A DNA stretch of 64,000 nucleotides from Klebsiella aerogenes KCTC 2190. GTDB lineage: Bacteria > Pseudomonadota > Gammaproteobacteria > Enterobacterales > Enterobacteriaceae. The notes under the pieces were generated by a model. That model saw only the letters and a list, made by a program, of their open reading frames with translations. It had not been told where the DNA came from and did no database searches. This document shows positions 44,718-46,310 of the stretch, piece after piece. A program made the position numbers and the translations under genes. The stretch lies in the NCBI RefSeq assembly GCF_000215745.1, contig NC_015663.1, positions 5,180,780 through 5,244,779 of the forward strand. Reading direction: 5' to 3'. Positions within the stretch are counted from its first letter, which is position 1; every line of letters starts with the position of its first letter.

Positions 44718-44746
44718 AAACGGGGAGCAATGGCTCCCCGTTCTCT
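44718..44746 (+). terminator. Terminator after yfcH
   Basis: AACGGGGAGC - AATG - GCTCCCCGTT, a perfect 10-bp stem just after the yfcH stop, followed by a pyrimidine-rich tail (CTCTTCCCTT). It likely ends the folX-yfcH transcript. Confidence 0.82.
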
Positions 44747-44879
44747 TCCCTTGGGCGGAAGCCGCCTCGCAAATCGTTAATTCCTCGCTCTCCTTGCTAC
44801 GCTTCTTGTGAAGCGCATTCCAACCGCAAAATTATTCTCCTGCCATAACGTCCTGACGAGGAATATACCCTCAAAAATC

Positions 44880-44909
44880 GTTGACAACCGTCAACACTCT
44901 TTTTATTCT
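44880..44909 (+). promoter_or_regulatory. Promoter with palindromic operator before the HicA-like gene
   Basis: A perfect -35 box TTGACA (44881-44886) is followed after 17 bp by TATTCT (44904-44909). The -35 box is embedded in a perfect inverted repeat GTTGAC-AACC-GTCAAC (44880-44895). Such overlap is typical of autorepressed toxin-antitoxin operons. The predicted start site would be very close to the ribosome binding site (leader of about 9 nt), which is unusual, so the promoter needs testing. Confidence 0.6.
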
Positions 44910-44924
44910 GAGCAGGATTTGACG

Positions 44925-45179
44925 ATGAAGGAACATCCGGACAAACATATCAGGAAGGCGATTGCCACGGCGCTGGCGCGGGGGTGGATATTGCTGCCTG
45001 CAGGTAAAAGCGCTCATTGCTTTGGCCGCCTCGTCTGCGGCGTGGCTGAACACCGTGAACATATGATGAGCATTTGGTCGACGCCCGCCGTCCCTGAAAA
45101 CCACGCCCGGCAAATAATCAGAATGGTCGAACGGTGTCCCATCCCGGCTACCGCGCGCATCACGCATAAGGAACGCTAA
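44925..45179 (+). CDS. Small HicA-like protein, putative toxin of a two-gene module
   Basis: 84-residue protein not part of the E. coli backbone. The pattern is helix, GWILLPAGKSAHCFGRLVC, then a strand ending IWSTPAVPENHARQI and a final helix. This resembles the HicA/dsRBD-like fold: a short helix, a G-(K)-S-x-H motif at residues 27-31 in place of GSHH, and a STP..P.HA..I segment. HicA proteins are mRNA interferases, so a toxin role is plausible but not shown. ATG at 44925 follows AGGA. The gene ends 3 bp before the helix-turn-helix gene, and that gene's ribosome binding site (AAGGAA) is inside this frame. Confidence 0.68.
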   Translation: MKEHPDKHIRKAIATALARGWILLPAGKSAHCFGRLVCGVAEHREHMMSIWSTPAVPENHARQIIRMVERCPIPATARITHKER

Positions 45180-45182
45180 ACG

Positions 45183-45737
45183 ATGCCGATATTTAATTTT
45201 ACGCTGACGCTGTCCGGCGTCACCAGTCAAACGCCAGGACTGGAAGATGCGCTCTTTGCCGCAGGCTGTAGCGACGCGCTGGTCTGCTTTTACGGTACCG
45301 CGGTCTACCTCGAGTTCGATCGCGAGGGCCAATCGCTGGAGCAGGCGGCGCTATCCGCCATCCGCGATGTAGAAACCGCCGCGCTGCCAAGTATCCGCGT
45401 GGAGTCCATCGATTCGACACTGGTCGGGCTGAGCGATATCGCCGAACTTATCGGCGTCTCCCGCCAGGCGATCGCGCTATTAAAAGAGGGCGCTCGCGGC
45501 AGCGGGCGGTTTCCCGGCCCCGTACAGCGCGTGAAGGGCAATTCCCCTCTCTGGCGCTGGAAATCCGTCGTTGAATGGTTAGTCGCGGAAAAGCGCATCG
45601 CCGCCGATTCGCCGATGGTGGCTAACGCCCTACTGCTGGATAGCCTCAACCTGGCGCTACAGCTTCGCCGTTCACCTGAAAATCACCGCGTGCAGCGCTA
45701 CCTGCAAAGTCTGAGCGCCACGTCACCCACGGGCTGA
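45183..45737 (+). CDS. Helix-turn-helix protein with HicB-like N-terminus, putative antitoxin/repressor
   Basis: 184-residue protein. Residues 1-70 form a small alpha/beta domain (FTLTLSG strand, then VYLEFDREGQSLEQAALSAI) resembling the strand plus SLEEA helix of HicB antitoxins. A helix-turn-helix follows at about 81-101 (LSDIAELIGVSRQAIALL). An AlpA/excisionase-like wing (FPGPV, then SPLWRWKSVVEWL) is at 110-134, and a helical tail ends the protein. It follows the HicA-like gene by 3 bp. It could be the antitoxin and autorepressor acting on the palindrome at 44880. I recognise the pattern as a recurring pair but can name no characterised family. Confidence 0.65.
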   Translation: MPIFNFTLTLSGVTSQTPGLEDALFAAGCSDALVCFYGTAVYLEFDREGQSLEQAALSAIRDVETAALPSIRVESIDSTLVGLSDIAELIGVSRQAIALLKEGARGSGRFPGPVQRVKGNSPLWRWKSVVEWLVAEKRIAADSPMVANALLLDSLNLALQLRRSPENHRVQRYLQSLSATSPTG

Positions 45738-45812
45738 TTCGCGAGGGCGAGCATGTTACCCGGCACAGCATGGTGGTAAAGTAGGCTTTCGTTTTAGCTG
45801 ATTAATTGCTTT

Positions 45813-46310
45813 ATGACTACGATAACAACGTCCCGCCTGTTGCTTTCCCGCTTCACTCCGGCCGATTGGCCCTTTTTTCTGCGTCTGCGTCAGGACCCTG
45901 ACGTCATGCGTTACATGGGTGAGGTGTTAAGCGAAACGGCGCTACGCAGCGTGTTTGAATGCCGCTGCGAAGATGCCGGCGTCTTTGTATTGCGCGATTC
46001 TGCCGGCACGCCGCTGGGGGATATTGGTCTGCGCATCAGCGCGAAAAACCCGCACGAGGCCGACGTCGGCTACGCGCTACTGCCGCAAGCGCAGGGTCAG
46101 GGCTACGCCAGCGAAGCGCTGCGCGCGATTTGTGATTACGGCTTTACCACCCTTGGCATCCACGCCATTAATGCCTGGGTGCTGGGCAATAATTTGGGAT
46201 CGTCCCGGCTGCTGGAAAAGCACGGTTTTGTACGCATTCAGGTGCTGGAAAATGCTTACCACCTCAACGGCGTGGATTACGATGATTGGATCTACCGGCT
46301 GGAGCGTTAA
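45813..46310 (+). CDS. GNAT acetyltransferase (RimJ/RimL-like)
   Basis: 165-residue GNAT-family N-acetyltransferase, RimJ/RimL group. It opens with the typical TTSRLLLSRFTPAD, has a central strand GDIGLRIS, the acetyl-CoA loop QAQGQGYASEAL (Q-x-x-G-x-G/A) near residue 95, and NNLGSSRLLEKHGF near 130. The acceptor is unknown. It lies 75 bp after the helix-turn-helix gene on the same strand, and has no DUF1778-type antitoxin beside it, so I do not call it a TacT-type toxin. It is convergent with hisP. Confidence 0.88.
   Translation: MTTITTSRLLLSRFTPADWPFFLRLRQDPDVMRYMGEVLSETALRSVFECRCEDAGVFVLRDSAGTPLGDIGLRISAKNPHEADVGYALLPQAQGQGYASEALRAICDYGFTTLGIHAINAWVLGNNLGSSRLLEKHGFVRIQVLENAYHLNGVDYDDWIYRLER

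Follow-up and report, generated by a model that had tools for sequence, protein, structure and literature searches.

We analysed 64,000 nucleotides of Klebsiella aerogenes KCTC 2190 (the window; G000:C1:5180780-5244779 of a single-contig 5.28 Mb genome) and describe here two adjacent genes, A and B, that lie between yfcH and hisP on the forward strand (Table 1). An earlier reading made from the letters alone (the sequence-only reading) had proposed them as a non-canonical HicAB-like toxin-antitoxin pair, and the layout that it described is confirmed: the genes are 3 bp apart, the AAGGA ribosome binding site of B stands 10 nt before its start and inside the end of A, and the motifs AGKSAH and WSTPAVPENHARQI are present in A as quoted. 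The unit itself starts further upstream, at a promoter and operator occupying 44880-44909. The -10 box ends 15 bases before the A start, a distance that, judged by eye, varies in relatives; the leader would be very short, and an AGGA at 44914-44917 may sit at its very end.

A and B are real genes under purifying selection. Compared with 12 relatives picked from the same site, the ratio of nonsynonymous to synonymous differences (pN/pS) ranges over 0.19-0.32 in A and over 0.20-0.31 in B, looser than for hisP (0.03-0.09). These values, together with the relatives found in the protein database at E <= 0.001 (45 for A and 212 for B), indicate that the pair is more than a chance occurrence.

We consider it moderately probable that A-B is an autorepressed type II toxin-antitoxin operon, of which the toxin is HicA-like and the antitoxin is not HicB. 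The computed support for this interpretation consists of the adjacency of the two genes, purifying selection, a single palindrome, a linked change of operator and recognition helix, the modularity of B, the loss of A in loci that keep B, and the predicted folds of both proteins.

Table 1. Features of the A-B unit, in window positions
Feature	Position	Strand	Evidence
Palindromic operator GTTGAC-N4-GTCAAC, predicted B-binding site	44880..44895	.	Single exact genome match; kept in relatives; tracks helix
Sigma-70-type promoter TTGACA-17-TATTCT, -35 box within palindrome	44881..44909	+	10/12 matches
Gene A, HicA-like putative toxin, 84 residues + stop	44925..45179	+	PADLOC PDC-M06A, phrog_5923; predicted fold; invariant residues
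H31 codon, candidate catalytic histidine	45015..45017	+	Invariant in 124/124; at most one residue from HicA GSHH histidines (profile alignment)
Codons C38 to H46, Cys/His loop between strands 2 and 3, candidate metal site	45036..45062	+	Residue conservation
Ribosome binding site of B, AAGGA, within the end of A	45168..45172	+	Read from sequence
Gene B, putative antitoxin and autorepressor, 184 residues + stop	45183..45737	+	PADLOC PDC-M06B, phrog_2620; predicted fold, structure matches
B residues 1-78, ferredoxin-like domain, candidate A-binding (antitoxin) domain	45183..45416	+	Model; VIA structure matches; stands alone beside A in four loci
B residues 79-138, excisionase/terminase-small-subunit-type winged helix-turn-helix	45417..45596	+	

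Conservation of the pair and loss of gene A

We found that the two genes almost always travel together. Among 295 sampled genomes of the same family, A is present in 52 and B in 56, and all 52 genomes with A also have B. A genome scan returned 156 relatives of A; in all of the best 80, which were kept, B lies directly downstream. The viral loci give a similar picture, with 39 of 40 passing the adjacency test and the fortieth (L155) carrying a short B that was found by reading. Furthermore, among 72,556 plasmid records, 234 match the A protein of Cyrano, a phage-plasmid of E. coli LF82 (E <= 1e-3), and 276 match the window B (E <= 1e-5).

The pair had been noted as having no counterpart in the E. 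coli order of this region, and blastn of 44725-45810 found none on E. coli chromosomes: 108 of 5426 E. coli genomes matched, and all 108 places are on plasmids (35% of the query at 67%, among the matches listed). The Cyrano pair matched in 110 of the 5426 genomes, 108 of them over at least 80% of the pair, and again all on plasmids.

When 174 loci were scored for intact genes, 156 had both genes whole and 13 had a broken or absent A with a whole B; three of the remainder have a whole A with a short B and two have neither gene whole in that sense. The 174 loci include many genomes held twice, and the 13 A-loss loci represent 10 genomes, three of which were fetched twice. The sample is also uneven: A was the means of finding the genome and viral loci, and five loci were chosen for having B without A. 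No locus that was retrieved by way of A combines an intact A with a broken first domain of B. These counts supersede an earlier one on 177 loci, in which only A was broken in 15 and only B in 12, A was missing beside a whole B in 4, and both genes were affected in 2; that count was noisy, since alignments continued beyond the natural stops of variable tails or were split between two frames.

The losses take several forms. In L004, an E. coli phage-plasmid, an inverted repeat replaces the core of A, and the palindrome and B are kept; A is deleted with palindrome and B retained in G203 and G277, which keep a C-terminal remnant of A, and in G253; and the reading frame of A is broken in Raoultella terrigena and G114. 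For all of these, draft assemblies may contain errors. Loss of A with B kept fits what is predicted for a toxin and its antitoxin. The L004 repeat region matches 223 E. coli records, of which the lower-ranked among those listed cover only 45-67 bases, and it may be a small mobile repeat.

Next to yfcH and a GNAT gene, the pair occurs in 24 of the 80 genome loci. The B proteins of these loci, with those of LR134127.1 and G001, make 26 that form one clade among 84 in the tree (support 100/99). This fits a single entry of the pair at yfcH-hisP, probably in the ancestor of a group of Enterobacteriaceae, with inheritance thereafter. Elsewhere the pair is carried by SSU5-type phage-plasmids, and it also occupies other chromosomal positions, in Enterobacterales, Acinetobacter, Moraxella, Neisseriaceae and others. 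In the window, the GNAT acetyltransferase gene (45813-46310) separates B from hisP, but its place in L009, L010 and L016 is between yfcH and A, so that either the pair or the GNAT gene has moved. The aligned yfcG, folX, yfcH, A, B, GNAT protein, hisP and hisM are 100% identical to those of K. aerogenes NCTC10006 (LR134127.1), where the GNAT gene falls in two pieces. This record is filed as plasmid 7, yet it has ackA, pta, folX, hisP and purF and is probably a piece of chromosome.

A palindrome in the promoter tracks the recognition helix of B

The palindrome GTTGACAACCGTCAAC at 44880-44895 is perfect, contains the -35 box, and occurs exactly once in the window and once in the genome. From 132 regions upstream of A, 113 of them distinct, we found a perfect 6-N4-6 palindrome in 97 of the 113, whereas 200 single-base shuffles gave 2.8 on average and 9 at most. 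Most are GTTGAC-N4-GTCAAC (83), followed by GTTGTC-N4-GACAAC (10), GTTTAC-N4-GTAAAC (2), GTGGAC-N4-GTCCAC (1) and one of another kind. Of the 17 regions without the four named types, 13 retain 9-11 of the 12 letters, and L084, L095, L101 and L153 retain 6-8. A palindromic operator in the operon promoter, as in HicAB, is thus found here, with B as the protein predicted to bind it.

Furthermore, the operator varies with the recognition helix of B. Six more loci were added for this comparison, giving 123 distinct combinations of helix and operator. A helix of the R-K type (for example SRQNMRKLM) is present with 13 of 13 GTTGTC sites and with none of 86 GTTGAC sites, for which SRQAIALLK is an example of the helix; the two operator classes correspond approximately to two clades, and these counts are not independent events. 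No perfect site was seen in 20 of the 123 combinations, two of which have the R-K helix. The link between operator and helix draws its weight from the fact that both arms of the palindrome changed together.

Predicted fold and conserved residues of protein A

Structure prediction models A as a HicA/dsRBD fold, the fold that the sequence-only reading had named as supporting its proposal. Among 124 distinct A proteins, from which broken copies were excluded, H31, T53, P54 and H60 are identical in all, C38 is Cys in 123 and C71 in 122. In a profile alignment, for which 16 HicA stretches were picked by hand and those of the WxDIE type, the genome's own included, were left out, H31 aligns at the HicA GSHH motif with a register uncertain by one residue, and most of a distant A group reads GGSH at this place. 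HicA has a conserved glycine and a catalytic histidine before strand 2, and a histidine with an upstream glycine is described as important in HicA-like proteins (PMC11373665). The candidate for this glycine in A, G27, is present in 83 of the 124 proteins, with a gap in 39. The separate HicA of this genome lies outside the window (G000:C1:1181764-1181916; 36.1 bits versus a Pfam cut-off of 27), and PF15919 HicB has no match in the genome.

Between strands 2 and 3, A has a loop that reads C-x(3-6)-H-x2-H in most proteins and C-x6-C-x-C-x3-C in the distant group; residue 46 is His in 108 of the 124 and Cys in the other 16, and the loops of L155 and L245 do not have the full Cys/His set. Because the exchange of His for Cys at a fixed place typifies metal sites, the loop looks metal-binding and is a candidate metal site. 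A distant group of the pair in Enterobacteriaceae (L224-L233) combines a four-Cys loop in A with the GTTGTC-N4-GACAAC operator.

Neither A nor B reaches the cut-off of any Pfam or NCBIfam family, and neither has a match in a PDB sequence search at E <= 0.001. A weak Pfam RuBisCO_small match of A was set aside (14.9 bits versus a cut-off of 27); weak matches to this model recur in 37 of 48 relatives of A, the best at 0.00065.

Both proteins match existing models as a pair: PADLOC lists A as PDC-M06A (3.8e-17) and B as PDC-M06B (6.8e-33), adjacent as this candidate pair defines, and PHROGs places A in phrog_5923, of unknown function, and B in phrog_2620 (2.6e-64), which it labels excisionase and transcriptional regulator. 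The homologues in Cyrano are annotated as HicA toxin and putative antitoxin HicB, and PMC9928086 reports their transcription above the prophage background, 30-fold for A and 14-fold for B. We found no mention of PDC-M06, PDC-M06A/B, phrog_5923 or phrog_2620 in the literature searched. The suggestion of a little-described family is fair, with the reservation that the family already carries names in PADLOC and in phage Cyrano.

Domain organisation of protein B

The first domain of B is modelled as beta-alpha-beta-beta-alpha-beta, a ferredoxin-like arrangement, and B scores 13.1 against a HicB profile compared with a mean of 13.2 for shuffled sequences. On the strength of this model and profile B does not appear to be HicB, and the HicB-like start attributed to it does not hold. 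HicB is also absent among the structure matches listed for B, which alone excludes nothing. The other half of that description, a helix-turn-helix with an excisionase-like wing, stands: B matches phrog_2620, and its winged helix-turn-helix is close to RdfS (8dgl, among the VIA structure matches) and to terminase small subunits.

Four loci separate the two domains. In L084, L101, L153 and L155 the second gene encodes only 87-103 residues, corresponding to the ferredoxin-like domain without the helix-turn-helix, and directly follows A (in L101, A has a stop near its end). Two of these four short proteins were searched, and both match only the first 69 positions of PDC-M06B. No operator is present in L084, L101 and L153, and none is visible in L155. 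Because the short forms remain beside A and show no operator, the evidence on balance points to the N-terminal domain as the putative A-binding part of B and to the helix-turn-helix as the likely reader of the palindrome.

Proposed mechanism and alternative explanations

Under the toxin-antitoxin interpretation, A would be a HicA-like RNA-binding toxin, predicted to act as an RNase with H31 in its active site and a metal-binding loop between strands 2 and 3. B would neutralise A by binding it through the N-terminal ferredoxin-like domain, and the winged helix-turn-helix of a B dimer would occupy the palindrome over the -35 box, repressing its own operon. An excess of free A, or the loss of B, would relieve this repression and free the toxin.

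Three points weigh against this interpretation. The HicA likeness of A stands on the predicted fold, the invariant histidine near the HicA active site and a weak profile comparison, and does not extend to Pfam: HicA_toxin PF07927 is not listed for A at E <= 10 or for any of 48 relatives at E <= 1. L095 has a B with the helix-turn-helix yet no recognisable operator. Finally, Shi of ICEclc indicates that a HicA-like fold need not be a toxin (PMC6812849).

The last point also bears on an explanation without any toxin, which we regard as improbable, in which an autoregulated B of the excisionase/AlpA type would work with A, a small co-regulator that binds RNA or metal, the two forming a phage-plasmid switch domesticated in chromosomes. 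The Shi protein suggests that HicA-related proteins may have other partners; the PHROGs label of B, the proximity of its winged helix-turn-helix to RdfS and terminase small subunits, and the position of the SSU5 and Cyrano pairs between recombination genes and DNA polymerase would fit such a switch as well. Against it, the exact operator occurs once in the genome and over the unit's own promoter, the gene that disappears is A, with B retained, a B without the DNA-binding domain exists and is still beside A, and the identical K. aerogenes record shows no annotated integrase within 8 kb of the pair, whose neighbours there are yfcH, the GNAT gene and hisP. Rather unlikely, though less so, is a dedicated anti-phage system (PDC-M06) in which phage infection would trigger A; this would be compatible with a toxin-antitoxin pair. 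It is favoured by the PADLOC matches, by phage-plasmid carriage, by neighbour proteins of which some match defence models (among the families listed, Cas3e, DrmC and mads proteins), and by a report that one strain, once it had lost an SSU5-like plasmid, showed a larger phage burst and increased plasmid uptake (PMC8969562), an effect for which we saw no responsible gene named and on a plasmid that may or may not carry the pair. On the other side, the PADLOC name is a candidate label, the neighbours at yfcH-hisP are housekeeping genes, and elsewhere no defence family recurs widely. Here we scanned 133 of 148 neighbour proteins listed from 37 hand-chosen loci away from yfcH-hisP (a manual choice set aside 15: all eight from L106 and L225, which were taken as near copies of other loci, and seven single frames): 70 PADLOC families at E <= 1e-5 and 74 PHROGs families at 1e-10 matched at least one protein, and none matched more than 6. 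Because the scan has no control set, these matches neither show nor exclude a defence context.

Two further explanations are far less credible. A textbook HicAB system, in which B would be a HicB with a helix-turn-helix (class 3 of Gerdes), shares with A-B the gene order, sizes, DNA-binding partner and probable autoregulation; we rejected it for B, where neither model nor profile gives the N-terminal domain a HicB fold, and A falls outside PF07927. Least credible of all is that the palindrome is an intrinsic terminator of yfcH rather than an operator. A scan does list 44880-44895 as terminator-like too, with ACTCTTTTTA after it, but the same letters precede A where yfcH is absent and, in many cases, where there is no T run; in other clades, moreover, both half-sites have changed in concert, tracking the B helix.

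More tentatively than for the operon itself, we suggest that the pair may represent a second, unrecognised HicA-type branch, in which a HicA-like RNase with a metal loop is joined by a ferredoxin-like antitoxin unrelated to HicB, alone or fused to an excisionase-type repressor. If so, one toxin fold would have been captured by two unrelated antitoxin folds, and an operator-helix code would be readable across proteobacteria and phage-plasmids. HicA-like toxins would then stand under at least two unrelated antitoxin folds, and searches keyed to HicB would miss this branch. The correspondence of GTTGAC and GTTGTC half-sites with different helices is testable and offers a handle for finding the pair in genomes. 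The pair is common to SSU5-type phage-plasmids and to a fixed chromosomal site in Klebsiella, Raoultella, Kluyvera and relatives, and this shared carriage raises the question of whether the chromosomal copy acts against incoming phage-plasmids that bear the same genes.

Comparison with known systems

The HicAB family (classes 1-14; Gerdes 2024, PMC10865869) likewise has a DNA-binding partner and a palindrome at its own promoter, and the stand-alone short B resembles its class 1. Unlike HicAB, A lies outside Pfam HicA and has a Cys/His loop, and the first domain of B is ferredoxin-like rather than a partial RNase H and is followed by an excisionase-type winged helix-turn-helix; of the 14 HicA classes that the paper describes in its Figure 2 legend, none fits A-B. 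Shi of ICEclc is also a small protein that its authors relate to HicA (PMC6812849). It differs in its partner, ParA, in its parA-shi-parB locus, and in not inhibiting growth when alone; no parA-like gene is annotated within 8 kb of the pair in the identical K. aerogenes record. Excisionase/AlpA-type regulators such as RdfS and Xis have the winged helix-turn-helix in common with B, which, unlike them, has a single exact palindromic genome site, located at the promoter of its own operon, and lacks a neighbouring integrase in the window.

PDC-M06A/PDC-M06B of PADLOC-DB is the same family, as both proteins match; it differs in being a candidate label only, for which we found no mechanism or test in the literature searched. 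Direct homologues that share the gene order are CYRAN_51/CYRAN_50 in Cyrano and SSU5_055/SSU5_054 in SSU5 (62% identity for A and 55% for B in Cyrano; 49% and 53% in SSU5), with an operator that is perfect in Cyrano and one letter off in SSU5. These pairs differ from that of the window in their phage-plasmid location.
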